DNA from: a virus
Virus record (IMG/VR): IMGVR_UViG_3300049911_000019
Span: 1-45,709 of that record
DNA length: 45,709 nt
Reading direction: 5' to 3' (one strand)
A program made the position numbers and the translations under genes. Positions 12,677-39,634 of this stretch are shown in pieces (the stretch's first letter is position 1; the number at the start of each line of letters is the position of its first letter). The notes beneath the pieces were generated by a model. It was not told where the DNA came from. It was given only the letters and a program-made list of their open reading frames with translations, and ran no database searches.

Positions 12677-12710
12677 GGGGTCGGCCTGACCCCTTGGCCG
12701 ACCCCATTTT
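12677..12710 (+). terminator. Intrinsic terminator before the split tail gene
   Basis: Perfect 10-bp stem GGGGTCGGCC / GGCCGACCCC with a 9-base loop, followed by ATTTT. It ends 12 bases before the presumed start of the N-terminal tail fragment. Confidence 0.88.
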
Positions 12711-12721
12711 AGAGGTGATAT

Positions 12722-12955
12722 ACGGAACTTTCATTCCCCATACACGGACTACATGAAGGACTGGCGGCGGAGAAACAGCCGCTGACTACCAGCCCCCTGT
12801 TGCAGAATGTCCGCCCATTTGACGTAGAAGACGAACGTATCCGGGGGGGTCAACGTCCGGGGGTCATTAAGGCGTATGAGACACAGGTGGGGGGTGCCCG
12901 ACCTGTGATACTTATGACACAAATTGCCACGACTTTTATCCCTCCGGTGGTGTAA
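12722..12955 (+). CDS. N-terminal fragment of a phage tail protein, non-ATG start
   Basis: This frame is open from 12719 and ends with TAA at 12953-12955. It contains the block NVRPFDVEDERIRGGQRPGV followed by IKAYETQVGGARPV, a pattern that starts a family of phage tail/structural proteins. No ATG, GTG or TTG occurs before the conserved part. ACG at 12722 lies 6 bases after AGAGG and would give a product beginning ELSFPIHGLHEG. The rest of such a protein appears in the 14943-16523 gene, so this is either a broken gene or a deliberately split one. The start codon is unproven. Confidence 0.6.
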   Translation, partial: TELSFPIHGLHEGLAAEKQPLTTSPLLQNVRPFDVEDERIRGGQRPGVIKAYETQVGGARPVILMTQIATTFIPPVV

Positions 12956-12956
12956 G

Positions 12957-13535
12957 ATGGCGTTGCCCGAATGGCTGAGAAATTTTACTACAGAGACCGA
13001 TGGTACTTGGGCACCGGGTGGAACGTATAGTTTTGAATTTAACGATTTTGCTGATACGGAAAGCAATGGTAGGGGTTTATATGAAACTTCTGATGGTAAT
13101 TTAACTGGAGATTGGTTGTTTTTAGTGGACAGAGATAATCCTGTATCCATCACTGGCAGTACTTTTGACAATATTTCTTTAGAGCAACCCGTTAATCCCC
13201 CACCGGATACTATAGTGTGGTGGAGACTTACATTTACTATCCCAACTGATATAGCACCAGGAACTTATACATTATTGTATGCGTCTTATGTGTTAGAAGG
13301 CGAAACAATAATTTGGACCGTCACAGACAGTTACGATATAATGGTGGGCATCCCGTCCCCCAGTTATTTCATCCCCGATTCCCTGGTCCCCGACCGCCCC
13401 CTGGATTATGACCCCGACCTCGGTTGGGACGAAGAAAATAGTGTGTGGACTCCCACTGCCAGGGGCGGGGGAAGATATAGACAACAATTCATCGCCATCG
13501 GAGAAGAAGGCGAAATTTATTATGGAGGCGTATAA
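12957..13535 (+). CDS. Putative virion protein in the adhesin cassette, 192 aa
   Basis: Begins at ATG 12957, two bases after the preceding stop, with GGTGGTG upstream. The central part is an immunoglobulin-like beta domain (WWRLTFTIPTDIAPGTYTLLY, then an ILEGET-like strand region). The end (YRQQFIAIGEEGEIYYGG) resembles C-termini of small phage tail proteins. Base use in 13000-13320 is clearly more A/T rich than in the surrounding genes, which suggests recent acquisition. It joins the next gene by a one-base overlap. Confidence 0.65.
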   Translation: MALPEWLRNFTTETDGTWAPGGTYSFEFNDFADTESNGRGLYETSDGNLTGDWLFLVDRDNPVSITGSTFDNISLEQPVNPPPDTIVWWRLTFTIPTDIAPGTYTLLYASYVLEGETIIWTVTDSYDIMVGIPSPSYFIPDSLVPDRPLDYDPDLGWDEENSVWTPTARGGGRYRQQFIAIGEEGEIYYGGV

Positions 13536-13951
13536 TGGCCGCGGAACTACACACAGAGGGCCTACAGTTTTTGCTTGAGGTGGTTTTTTCAGAGGAACAA
13601 TCTGTTCCCGTTAATTTTTATGTGGGTTTATGCACAGACGCTTCGCTCGCCGAAGGGGTTGGTCTTGGAGATTTAACAGAAGTTACCGGAACGGGGTATG
13701 CCAGACAAACCGTGGCCAGCGATGATGTTGATTTTACATCAGCAACCACAGGAACCGGAGACAGGAAAACTACCACTAAGACCGTTACTTTTGAAGCAGG
13801 CGGGGATTGGACCGGAGCCAATACCGTATTCTTGGCGACTACTGTCGACGAGACCGGAAAACTTGTGGCATCGGCCCCATTATCAGAAACCCGTACATTA
13901 GCAAATGGTGATACTTTGGACGTAGCAATAGAAATAGATTTGGCTGGATAA
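13535..13951 (+). CDS. Phage structural protein, 138 aa
   Basis: A beta-rich protein with the layout seen in many phage virion accessory genes: NFYVGLCTDASLAEG near the start, a central TVTFEAGGDWTGANTVFLAT, then GKLVASAPLSETRTLANGD and LDVAIEIDLAG at the end. The exact role is unknown; it is probably part of the tail or head surface. One-base overlaps at both ends tie it to its neighbours. Confidence 0.75.
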   Translation: MAAELHTEGLQFLLEVVFSEEQSVPVNFYVGLCTDASLAEGVGLGDLTEVTGTGYARQTVASDDVDFTSATTGTGDRKTTTKTVTFEAGGDWTGANTVFLATTVDETGKLVASAPLSETRTLANGDTLDVAIEIDLAG

Positions 13952-14733
13952 TGGTCCTACAAGATTCTTATAACACTGGGGATACAGGTAACCTATCGTT
14001 TGGTTCTACGAGATGGGTGGCCCAGGTATTTACTGCGAATTCCAACTATACAATAACTAAAGTTAAATTATTATTACTTAGACATGCTACAAATAATCCA
14101 GGAACTATAACAGTAGAAATAATTCCTACCACTGGTGGTGCTCCAGTGGACGATAATCCTTCTGCTGAAATAGCATCAGGAACAACAGATGGTTCTACTT
14201 TACCAACGGGTTCCCCTTATGAATGGAGAGAAATAATCTTTTCTTCTCCTGTGGCATTGACATCTGGAATAAAATATGCTGTTGTTTGTAAAGCAACAGG
14301 AGCACCAACTACAACTTCTGCTTATTGGCGATATGATGTTACTGGAGTATATACCGGAGGAGATTTATATGCCTCCACAACCTCTGGAAATTCCTGGTCG
14401 GTAGGAACAAATCAGGATTGTTTATTTGAAACCTACGACGCAGAAGCAAGTGCTTATGATGAAGATACGCCAATAGTTTCAGGAACGGGTTCAGTTGTTT
14501 TGACTATACAAACATACACTCCATCGGGTATTGATTACGACGAGAGTGTGTTAATAGTTAGTGCCTTGCTTAGCGTTAGTTTGGTTGTGGAAAATTGTTT
14601 GAAAGCCCCTATCCAGTGGCCCCCGACCCGGCCCGCCGGTATAGCCGACGACGATACCCTGCATAATAATACGTTAATTGCCGTCGGATACGATGCCGAC
14701 GGACTTGGGATAATTTATTTTAAGGAGACATAG
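13951..14733 (+). CDS. Adhesin-like protein with choice-of-anchor beta-sandwich
   Basis: 260 residues. The first 175 form a jelly-roll of the kind used in bacterial surface and fiber proteins (WVAQVFTANSNYTITKVKLL, then TITVEIIPTTGGAP, then SPVALTSGIKYAVVCKA). The tail (IQWPPTRPAGIADDDTLH) is a linker-like segment. Such domains often bind glycans or dock fibers. The coding sequence is more A/T rich than its neighbours up to about 14580 and then returns to the phage norm, pointing to an imported domain fused to a resident C-terminus. Confidence 0.7.
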   Translation: MVLQDSYNTGDTGNLSFGSTRWVAQVFTANSNYTITKVKLLLLRHATNNPGTITVEIIPTTGGAPVDDNPSAEIASGTTDGSTLPTGSPYEWREIIFSSPVALTSGIKYAVVCKATGAPTTTSAYWRYDVTGVYTGGDLYASTTSGNSWSVGTNQDCLFETYDAEASAYDEDTPIVSGTGSVVLTIQTYTPSGIDYDESVLIVSALLSVSLVVENCLKAPIQWPPTRPAGIADDDTLHNNTLIAVGYDADGLGIIYFKET

Positions 14734-14734
14734 T

Positions 14735-14968
14735 ATGGGTGCGGCAGAAGATATTGTAAAGGCAAAAATGAAGAAACCAAGTATGGGTTATGCGGAATCA
14801 GTTAAAGTGGCCGAGGCTAACACCCCCCCGGAAAAACCCAAACCACCACCAACAGTCCCTGTTGAACAGGAAAACTGGGTTCAGAAAATGACGAGGCAAA
14901 TACACAGGTATCTCACTCGCAAAGCAAAGGAAAGCAAGACCAATGCCGACCCTAACACTGTTAGATGA
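14735..14968 (+). CDS. Small proline/lysine-rich protein, 77 aa
   Basis: Strong ribosome site TAAGGAG before the ATG at 14735. The N-terminal helix (GAAEDIVKAKMKKPSMGYAE) is followed by a Pro/Lys-rich linker (PPEKPKPPPTVPVE) and a basic amphipathic helix. It may be a linker or a fiber-attachment factor, with no recognised family. Its last 26 bases overlap the next gene. Confidence 0.6.
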   Translation: MGAAEDIVKAKMKKPSMGYAESVKVAEANTPPEKPKPPPTVPVEQENWVQKMTRQIHRYLTRKAKESKTNADPNTVR

Positions 14969-16523
14969 TACCCACGGATTCACAGCGGGCGACTTGGACG
15001 CGAGTGGGCAGATAGCGGCCTGTAGCGCGTATCAACGGGTCTATTTTGCTGATGGACGGCCACGATATGACGCCAGTGGTGAGTTGTTAGATATACACGA
15101 CTCAGGTTATCACAAGTTGGATTTTATTAACGACCGATTGGTAGGTACACCGGATGGGGCGTTTACCCAGGGCGAAACAGTTACCCAAAATCAGGGTGGG
15201 GACCCAGAGGTTATAGCCGAGGGGATATTTTACGAGACCCTAACAGGCCAGGGGACGGGCGGCGACGAAACTTGGAATCTGATATACCGGACTACCGAGG
15301 TGCCATTTGTTATCGATACTACGATAACTGGAACAGTTGGGGACGTTCCTGCAACTCTGGCACCTACTGCTGCTCCCGTTTATCCGCCCCACTGGCTCAA
15401 CTGGACCCTAACCGCTGGTACGTTTCCCGATGGCGGGTCAGATATAATGGCCCTGGCGTTTGGACGTATTTTTATGAATAGTAAGTTCCATCCACACCAA
15501 TGGTTTGCTACCCGGATAAACGACCCACTTGATTTAGCATTGGTCACAGATGACGTGGCCAGTGCCTGTGATAGTCAAGCCGCAGAGAAGGCCGGGTTGG
15601 TGGGGGACCAGATTGTAGCAATTATACCTAATAAAGACCTTTTTGTGATTTTTGGTTGCGTCAATAAAATGTATCTGTTGCGGTCCGACCCCCTGCGCAA
15701 TGGATTCTTTACTATTCTAACAGACAACACCGGCATATTCAGTTCCACGTCATATTGTTGGGATGACAAATACAATCTGTATTTTGTAGGCAATGATGGG
15801 ATTTATACTATATCTTATGAATCATTATTAAACAGTTTGCCCGCCACCAACGTGACTAAGGACCGGGTTCCCAAATTGTTGGCCTCGATGGCCACGAACC
15901 GGGGGACCGACCGGATTGCGATGGTATACGATAAAGACCGTTACGGGATACAAATAACCATAAGCCAGAAAGACGGTGCGTGGCATACGGCGTTGTGGCT
16001 CGATTTACGCACTGGCGGCATATTCCCCGAAAAATATCAGGGAGGCCAGTTGCCGGCGTCATCATTTTATTTTGACTCCAGAATCGCCTCCGAACGAACT
16101 TGTTTGGTTGGCGGTTACGATGGGTACATACGCCGGTATGATGAAGCCACTAAGTCCGACGTGGCCGCCGATGATTCAGACGTGGCCATCGACAGTTACG
16201 TAACACTGGGTCCGGTGGCGGCCCAGGGGACGAGGGGTAAGGTAAAATTAAATGAATTGTCGGTTAGAACTGGAATTGATACCGACCACCTTTCTATAGG
16301 ATTATATTCAGCGATAACGGCGGCTAAACTTATAGACGAATTGAAATCTGGAATCGCCCCCAAAACATTTAAAACATTTACGCTGGACTCATTGTTGCCG
16401 TCACTCCGCCAGAAATTATTGGACGGGGCCGTGGCAGTTGTAATATCCAATAACACAGTAGATTCAAGTTTTAGTATAGAAAAAGTTGATGCCGATATTT
16501 CGGAGATTGGACGGGTAAAATAA
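14943..16523 (+). CDS. Tail protein, C-terminal major part
   Basis: 526 residues. Features shared with a large family of phage tail proteins include YQRVYFADGRPRYD near the start, the block FATRINDPLDLALV, repeated beta-propeller-like strands (IVAIIPNKDLFVIFG, DNTGIFSSTSYCWDD, GGYDGYIRRYD) and a C-terminal beta domain. In that family the N-terminal GGQRPG region belongs to the same chain; here it lies 2 kb upstream in a separate ORF (12722-12955), with four genes between. The ATG at 14943 is inside the previous gene and no ribosome site is obvious. Confidence 0.7.
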   Translation: MPTLTLLDDTHGFTAGDLDASGQIAACSAYQRVYFADGRPRYDASGELLDIHDSGYHKLDFINDRLVGTPDGAFTQGETVTQNQGGDPEVIAEGIFYETLTGQGTGGDETWNLIYRTTEVPFVIDTTITGTVGDVPATLAPTAAPVYPPHWLNWTLTAGTFPDGGSDIMALAFGRIFMNSKFHPHQWFATRINDPLDLALVTDDVASACDSQAAEKAGLVGDQIVAIIPNKDLFVIFGCVNKMYLLRSDPLRNGFFTILTDNTGIFSSTSYCWDDKYNLYFVGNDGIYTISYESLLNSLPATNVTKDRVPKLLASMATNRGTDRIAMVYDKDRYGIQITISQKDGAWHTALWLDLRTGGIFPEKYQGGQLPASSFYFDSRIASERTCLVGGYDGYIRRYDEATKSDVAADDSDVAIDSYVTLGPVAAQGTRGKVKLNELSVRTGIDTDHLSIGLYSAITAAKLIDELKSGIAPKTFKTFTLDSLLPSLRQKLLDGAVAVVISNNTVDSSFSIEKVDADISEIGRVK

Positions 16524-37660: not shown

Positions 37661-39634
37661 TTACGCGACACCCACCAAATCAAGTTTCAGATATTTAATT
37701 TCCAACATTTTACGGAGTCCATTATACTCTGGCAAATCCAACTTGTCAACAACAATCTTCGCTAATTCTCTTGCTTTTAATAATAATTCGTAATCATCCA
37801 CCAGACTCGCAAACTTTAAATCAGGCAACCCGTGTTGTTTCGTCGAGAATAATTCGCCCGGCCCCCTCAGTCTCAGGTCGGCCTCGGCTATCTCGAAGCC
37901 GTCGTTTGTTTGCTCCAGCGTTCGGAGCCGGGCGATTGACGTATCGTTGGCGGTGGAGGCCATTAGAAAACAGAACGCTGTTTCAGTTGACCTGCATATT
38001 CTACCCCTTAATTGATGCAGTTGGGACAGGCCAAACCTATCAGCCCCCTCTATAAGCATGACCGTGGCGTTCGAGCAGTCAAGGCCCACCTCGGCGATAA
38101 CTGTACTAACGAGGATTTTATATTCACCGGACTTAAACTTTCGTAGGGTATCCGTTTTAACTTCACTGGTATCTTTACCCGTCAAACTGGCAACGGAATA
38201 ATCAGCGAATCGCCGGGCTATATCACAGTATCCATCGGCCACGCCGGTCATATCTTCCTCGCCACTTGCAATACGAGGATAGACAACATAAATCTGATGG
38301 CCCTGTTTAAGTTGTTCGTCAATCAATTCGTAAACGCCTTCACGGCGGTCTGGTAGTACCCAACGGGCCACGACGGCCCCACGCTTAATTGGCATTTCCT
38401 TGATAGTTGATACATCCAGGTCGCCGAAAACCGTGAGGGCGATTGTGCGAGGGATGGGGGTCGCGCTCATAAGTAAAACGTGTGGGTTGCCATACTTCTG
38501 GAGCAAGGCACGTTGGGCCACGCCGAATTTCTGCTGCTCGTCGATTATGACGAGGGACGCTTTCGTTAATAATTCTATATCGCATAACAGGGCGGTTGTT
38601 CCTATACATACTCCCCGCTTGCGATGACACTCGGCTTTATTTTCATAGCCGCCGATAAACAATTCCACATCGTCCCATCCGTAAGATTTCAAAACATCGT
38701 AGTGCTGGGAGGCCAAAATTGTCGTGGGACAAAGTATAATCGCCCGCTTATTATTCAGGGCCGTAAGCATCGCCGCGTAGAACGCAACAGCCGTCTTGCC
38801 TGAGCTAACGTCACCGTGGAGGAGGCGGTTCATCGGTTTATTTGATAGATACAAGTCCCTAAGAATATCTCGGAGAGCGGCATCTTGGTCGCTGGTAAAT
38901 TTATAAGGAAAATAGTGCTTTATCTTGTCCTCTAAATCGCACTCTTTAGAGTGACTATATTCATATTTTTTGCCAGGCGTATGTTCCTGTTGCCGTCTCT
39001 TGATTGCGACAGCCATCTGCTGTAGATAGAGTTCGTCGTACCGGAGCCGTTCCAGCCCATCTTCTAATTGTTGCTTGTTCTCCGGGAAATGCAGGAAATA
39101 AAAAGCGTCCGCCCGGTCATACAGGTCGGGGTTAATCCAATCAGGTATCTCAACATCCGCCAGCACCGCCCTCAACGCCGCCCGAATCGTCTGTGTGTAT
39201 TTACCATATAAACCGCCTGTTATCTCATCCGGCTTAAATGCACAGGTCGAAAACTTAGGCCCGGAAAACTGGGGCTGTCCTTTGTACTCTGATACTTTAC
39301 CCCATACGGCAATCAGCATCCCTTTTCGGATGTTATTTAGAAGCCAAACTTGGTTGAAAAATACCAATTCAACCTTCCCGGTCTCGTCTTCAACCATGAC
39401 TGAAACGATGGGGGCCTGCGTTGGTCGCCTGAAACAGGATATGACCCTACCTTGTATCAACGCCTGTTCCCCAACACAGAGGTCGCGGATGGGGGTTGTG
39501 CCGGGGAAAATCCAGTCGGAGGGCTTGTGTTCGAGGAGGTCGCCGACTGTAGTTACACCGAGACCCGCGAGTTCCTTCGCCCGGACGGGGCCGACGCCGC
39601 GCACTGCTTGAATTTTGGTTCGCCAATTATACAC
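37661..39634 (-). CDS. recG: RecG-like DNA helicase
   Basis: 657 residues, the full RecG layout. A helix-hairpin wedge start (VRGVGPVRAKELAGLG) and an OB domain (VEDETGKVELVFFNQVWLL) precede the superfamily 2 core: Walker A LHGDVSSGKTAVAFYAAML, DEQQ (RecG usually DEQH), LLMSATPIPRT and motif VI QLHQLRGRICRS (usually RGRVGRG, so the second Gly is Cys). It remodels stalled forks and D-loops and can replace T4 UvsW function. A phage gene of this kind is unusual. It ends one base before the homing gene. Confidence 0.9.
   Translation of the reverse strand: MYNWRTKIQAVRGVGPVRAKELAGLGVTTVGDLLEHKPSDWIFPGTTPIRDLCVGEQALIQGRVISCFRRPTQAPIVSVMVEDETGKVELVFFNQVWLLNNIRKGMLIAVWGKVSEYKGQPQFSGPKFSTCAFKPDEITGGLYGKYTQTIRAALRAVLADVEIPDWINPDLYDRADAFYFLHFPENKQQLEDGLERLRYDELYLQQMAVAIKRRQQEHTPGKKYEYSHSKECDLEDKIKHYFPYKFTSDQDAALRDILRDLYLSNKPMNRLLHGDVSSGKTAVAFYAAMLTALNNKRAIILCPTTILASQHYDVLKSYGWDDVELFIGGYENKAECHRKRGVCIGTTALLCDIELLTKASLVIIDEQQKFGVAQRALLQKYGNPHVLLMSATPIPRTIALTVFGDLDVSTIKEMPIKRGAVVARWVLPDRREGVYELIDEQLKQGHQIYVVYPRIASGEEDMTGVADGYCDIARRFADYSVASLTGKDTSEVKTDTLRKFKSGEYKILVSTVIAEVGLDCSNATVMLIEGADRFGLSQLHQLRGRICRSTETAFCFLMASTANDTSIARLRTLEQTNDGFEIAEADLRLRGPGELFSTKQHGLPDLKFASLVDDYELLLKARELAKIVVDKLDLPEYNGLRKMLEIKYLKLDLVGVA

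Follow-up and report, generated by a model that had tools for sequence, protein, structure and literature searches.

Podophage tail nozzles, such as those of SU10, T7 (gp12), P22 (gp10), Pa223, VP1 and GP4, are built on a propeller-based fold, and the solved nozzles aligned here hold the first ~66 residues, a hairpin and the rest of the protein in one chain. The SU10 report describes nozzle domains inserted between propeller blades 2 and 3, and a blade 1 nozzle loop that is the dock for the short tail fibres and is clamped by a fibre trimer (PMC9509320); in T7, the nozzle tip domain arises from a loop of blade 3 (PMC6702177). Division of a tail component is described for the side fibres LtfA and LtfB of phage DT57C (PMC4728585).

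The locus considered here lies in a single record of an uncultivated virus, IMGVR_UViG_3300049911_000019 (45.7 kb; the whole stretch analysed, 45,709 nucleotides, is referred to as the window). It probably encodes a split podophage nozzle into which adhesins from an intervening cassette plug by donating strands of the first blade. The propeller-based fold would be common to this and the described nozzles, as judged from a homologous chain, L085; in the window, however, the N-terminal part, the hairpin and the rest are not in one chain, the hairpin being carried on exchangeable proteins, and so this would be a split variant rather than a standard member. Fibre attachment at blade 1 would be shared with SU10, but the SU10 nozzle extends a loop, whereas here the adhesin would bring blade strands. 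The making of one tail component as two proteins is shared with DT57C, the component being a side fibre there and the DNA-gating nozzle here. A literature search over titles and the openings of abstracts, with most subscription papers outside its scope, returned no split nozzle and no strand-donating tail fibre or adhesin.

A further parallel is found in pili, where in donor-strand complementation a partner's strand completes the incomplete beta fold of immunoglobulin-like subunits. Strand completion would be alike in the two systems, with a propeller blade here in the place of the immunoglobulin-like subunit.

The virus and its relatives

Profile searches place a terminase, an SU10-like portal (Pfam SU10_portal, 30.8 bits against a cut-off of 30) and a weak head-protein match, in that order, upstream of the nozzle genes; a 425-aa protein, also upstream of them, has no convincing family match. 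A contig from another sample (L003) encodes a C chain 100% identical to that of the window in an unchanged arrangement, and the arrangement is therefore not an assembly slip. Searches with the C chain, and with the alignment built on it, retrieved relatives at 48-100% identity. No cultured relative was found in INPHARED, since tblastn with the C chain, the N chain, the L085 chain and the L107 chain gave zero matches to its phages, and PHROGs offered no useful match to the nozzle chains. When viruses were scanned with the chain of L095, only its own contig was returned.

Two peripheral observations may be of use. A genome scan found at least one locus among the matches listed, L113 (3754-5472), a compact single-chain relative without an insert; it lies on a Phycisphaerae MAG contig and is a lead to the host, the contig being possibly misbinned. 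On the minus strand of the window, 37661-39634 encodes a helicase resembling RecG, in which both the wedge and the C-terminal RecG domains are present and which is unusual for a phage of this size.

Organization of the locus

The locus occupies 12678-16523, with all features on the plus strand. As the first-pass annotation had proposed, a tail gene is split: an RGGQRPG N-terminus is found on 12722-12955, the sequence from YQRVYFADGR onward on 14943-16523, and four genes lie between. Just 5' of the N chain, at 12678-12712, a GC-rich stem-loop (GGGGTCGGCC/GGCCGACCCC) followed by ATTTT was read by eye; it is also present in L002. The N chain (12722-12955) would correspond to the first ~77 residues of the nozzle. 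The first of the four plus-strand ORFs (12957-13535) encodes a 192-aa protein, in which comparison with L002 separates a variable body from a C-terminal, putative docking tag (13386-13532; tag profile i-E 3.5e-21, for a row in the profile's own training set) ending in the hairpin RQQFIAIGEEGEIYYG. The second (13535-13951) is a small untagged protein of the Pfam Gp80 (podophage GP4 fiber I) family (PF23140, E 4.4e-13, 50.1 bits, above its cut-off of 27); a phmmer search of solved structures with it found none. The third (13951-14733; 260 aa) has a body resembling DUF4082 and lectin-like domains and ends in a variant of the tag (14617-14727; i-E 1.8e-4, again for a row in the profile's own training set) with the hairpin NNTLIAVGYDADGLGIIYFKE. 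The fourth (14735-14968) is a small basic protein of 77 aa overlapping the C chain by 26 nt; in many relatives, though not in all, a counterpart follows the last tag and precedes the C chain. The 526-aa C chain (14943-16523) would supply the nozzle propeller minus the first-blade hairpin, plus the remainder of the protein.

The N chain and its conservation

The N-chain frame is open from 12719 to 12955, with no ATG, GTG or TTG at the expected start in the window, L003 or L002. In all three, the place of the relatives' ATG (e.g., L004) is taken by an ACG behind AGAGGTGA (12719-12725), which is probably the N-chain start and is kept in two viruses. The lack of a conventional codon is what a decayed remnant might show, with the C chain working as a shortened nozzle, but this is very improbable: the window and L002 differ by 26 synonymous against 5 nonsynonymous codon changes in 73 codons, the ORF is separate and intact in most relatives, and in the relatives read it has an ATG start and a ribosome-site-like stretch. 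On this codon count the N chain is under purifying selection.

The arrangement is also widespread. The N chain is a separate upstream ORF in 19 of 25 window-clade loci, a set that includes the window and from which L003, duplicates of the same contigs, and L007 (which starts inside the C chain) were dropped; the other six contigs end before it. L002 was left out of one of the alignments (A2). A wider N-chain search yielded 80 loci. Of these, 78 were new, and they fall into the classes separate (59), fused into a long chain (18) or at a contig edge (1); counted by distinct N segment, the same set gives 53, 15 and 1 of 69. The N-terminal ORF is thus not a separate gene everywhere, since 18 of the 78 relatives have it fused. 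Some relatives have two adjoining genes (L095 4980-7671, L099 4944-7717, L111 4947-9067); in L095 and L099 both start with the nozzle N motif, and the first has an adhesin-like body and no hairpin.

The split is neither a recent insertion nor a broken gene. The first-pass annotation had offered two readings of it. That of a cassette inserted into the gene fell away: the clade yielded no intact relative, and several distant single-chain relatives already have an extra domain at this position, before the hairpin. That of a protein made as two chains holds insofar as N and C are separate genes throughout the clade; it was too small, a third piece, the first-blade hairpin, being on the ends of cassette proteins.

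Predicted fold of the C chain

Through its homology to L085, the C chain is predicted to be most of a podophage tail nozzle, of the propeller type of P22 gp10, T7 gp12 and SU10. The evidence for the fold comes from L085, a 551-aa chain that begins just before the hairpin and is ~30% identical to the window C chain. Its AlphaFold model, from 36 sequences (pLDDT 83.9, pTM 0.74), has hairpin strands at 15-18 and 21-25. In Foldseek, the first 15 PDB matches of the model are all phage tail structures (SU10 at 5.5e-12), and the matches include SU10, Pa223, LME-1, VP1, cyanophage A4, P22 and GP4. VIA aligns residues 9-551 of the model to 67-513 of Pa223 (Z 19.8, rmsd 3.4, 402 aligned) and 10-545 to 67-472 of P22 (Z 17.4). 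Ahead of the hairpin, these solved nozzles thus have ~66 residues; the N chain has 77. Many unrelated propellers also reach VIA Z 17-19, and the nozzle assignment therefore depends on the ranking given by Foldseek and on coverage of the full length. In a library of predicted viral structures, the named matches include P22 gp10-like and "stabilization" proteins.

A model of a single-chain relative is consistent with this: its residues 65-533 fit 48-521 of VP1, not strongly (VIA Z 19.4, rmsd 5.9, 404 aligned), and its N part is below pLDDT 50. Sequence searches of solved structures with the C chain, the N chain and the single-chain profile matched no nozzle, and a search with alignment A3 gave chance-level matches only.

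A C-terminal tag and the nozzle hairpin

All 21 window-clade loci have a ~50-aa tag shared by two or three cassette proteins (two in 18 loci, three in 3), and all 45 tags found by the profile, which was positive in 21 of 22 loci scanned, are at C-termini. The 22nd locus, L078, has no tag by profile; its hairpins are of another style. The profile finds two tags in the cassette of the window, whose proteins end in GGGRYRQQFIAIGEEGEIYYG and NNTLIAVGYDADGLGIIYFKE; the remainder of the 45.7 kb has none.

In two-chain relatives the C part extends N-terminally into a hairpin (e.g., KKLIAVGTDEVWYES in L068), often preceded in the same chain by an adhesin-like domain, and the window C chain begins immediately past this hairpin point. 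Sequence comparison indicates that the end of the tag is a beta-hairpin homologous to the relatives' hairpin, which lies exactly between the N and C parts. For a tag profile built from window-clade tags only, 30 chains with a fused hairpin were examined: 26 have any match, and in 20 the best one falls where the C homology begins (0.89 expected; L063 and L064, near copies, are counted apart). Single matches between tag and hairpin are weak, the best i-E being 0.0042 forward and 0.0029 in reverse, and the case for homology is made by the position and number of matches rather than by single scores. A hairpin-only profile does less well than the whole-tag profile (11 against 20 of 30).

The reverse profile, from 29 fused hairpins, was run on 78 cassette proteins and 78 shuffled proteins. 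It scores above zero in 11 cassette proteins, each time in the last 26 aa, and in one shuffled protein. Among 43 tagged proteins 33 have a match, with the midpoint in the last 26 aa in 23 (6.8 expected); 24 of 35 untagged proteins have one, so placed in 6 (6.0 expected). This criterion replaced an earlier, stricter one (match end within 4 aa of the C-terminus), by which the counts are 10 of 33 tagged (2.4 expected) and 2 of 24 untagged (2.1 expected).

Run on 12 single-chain relatives, the fused-hairpin profile locates the hairpin correctly in 4 and reaches significance in L100 alone (3.8e-4); in the others the hairpin was recognised by eye and from alignments. In L095 and L113, the N part, hairpin and C part can be followed by eye in one chain.

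Cassette proteins and their possible exchange

The first-pass annotation had taken two of the intervening genes for A/T-rich beta-sandwich genes. A/T-richness held for both 12957-13535 (GC 0.449) and 13951-14733 (0.418, against 0.489 in the window), the beta-sandwich only in part: 13951-14733 has sub-threshold matches to DUF4082 (E 1.3e-4, 22.4 bits against a cut-off of 28.4) and to a lectin-like domain (E 2.6e-3), and 12957-13535 has no domain match in the same search. The bodies before the tag vary among relatives, with Laminin_G_3 in L015 (3.9e-14), F5/8-type C in L026 (9.4e-7) and, below cut-off, a DUF4082-like body in L005 as in the window. From these homologous cassette domains it is plausible that the cassette proteins are adhesins.

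Between the window and L002, the N chain is 92% identical, the C chain 91% and the first tag, taken as the last 45 aa of cassette protein 1, 93%, and the body before the tag 30%, a pattern suggestive of a module swap. The tag also occurs with almost nothing before it: nine bare-tag proteins of 48-59 aa are found in 8 of 21 loci (L002, L005, L011 with two, L018, L023, L029, L032 and L036). It seems that the tag is needed and the adhesin optional.

In L002 (5486-6013), L005 (2003-2479) and L015 (4406-5008), the adhesin cassette contains genes that we take, by motif, to be HNH or endonuclease-VII-like; they are a possible driver of cassette exchange. Such genes would also be at home in an intron or intein carrying the cassette, with the ends joined after transcription or translation, a reading to which we attach almost no weight: 12600-15100 matches no Rfam model, self-splicing introns included, even with the E-value limit set at 1; the N-chain ORF is closed by a stop codon; and the joined product would be without the hairpin that one-chain relatives have there.

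History of the split

A quick maximum-likelihood tree made from 68 C regions has a branch (support 91) that separates the 12 single-chain rows from the 56 split-N rows; L113, L100 and L084 are long branches. The single chain is taken as the ancestral form because solved nozzles are single chains, not from a tree outgroup. A hairpin-free C chain needs three changes, one ancestral to a group of 25 rows (support 100) and one each in L078 and L094. It thus appears, from sequence, that the N part separated once and that the C chain parted from its hairpin on three occasions, always at one loop. In L078, L094, L020, L023 and L049 the stop of the hairpin gene and the ATG of the C chain overlap (TAATG) at the loop where fused chains continue. 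The clade appears to have cut the nozzle chain on both sides of a propeller insert.

A possible assembly

In the assembly that we favour, the N chain would supply the start of the platform and the first strand, and the C chain the other blades together with the C-terminal part. In one-chain nozzles two strands lie between the N and C parts; here, cassette adhesins would carry them as a C-terminal hairpin tag. On assembly, the hairpin of a tagged adhesin would go in after the N-chain strand and before the first strand of the C chain, an order that we infer from sequence order, and would complete blade 1 without a covalent link; the same insertion would anchor the adhesin to the tail. The nozzle subunit would consist of the N chain, the hairpin of the tag and the C chain, and whole adhesin genes could be swapped, or reduced to a bare tag, with the nozzle gene untouched.

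The number of tags complicates the fit. Each cassette has at least two, against a single gap in the C chain, and in L077, L079, L085, L087 and L098 a tagged protein lies beside a C chain with its own hairpin; one or more of the tags must therefore compete or have a second docking site. The second tag, that of the first gene ("A"), may have such a docking place. These same two facts would suit another explanation, in which a split nozzle folds a complete propeller from its N and C chains by themselves, and the tags serve only as a common signal for docking or export that binds elsewhere on the tail. We consider this unlikely, in view of the homology of the tag end to the hairpin at the exact junction and of three separate fissions, each leaving a hairpin-free C chain and a neighbour protein that ends in a hairpin.

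Strand donation by the tags, the preferred reading, may be extended, more doubtfully, to a plug-in tail: the DNA-gating propeller would be completed only by strands of exchangeable adhesins, any protein with the ~50-aa tag could join the virion, and receptor binding could pull on or release a blade, acting directly on the gate.

If strand donation is true, these phages could exchange their receptor-binding proteins and leave an essential gate protein undisturbed. The short, recurring, putative docking tag would be a handle by which unknown host-binding proteins of uncultivated viruses could be found, and a mechanical action of receptor binding on a nozzle blade would become testable.
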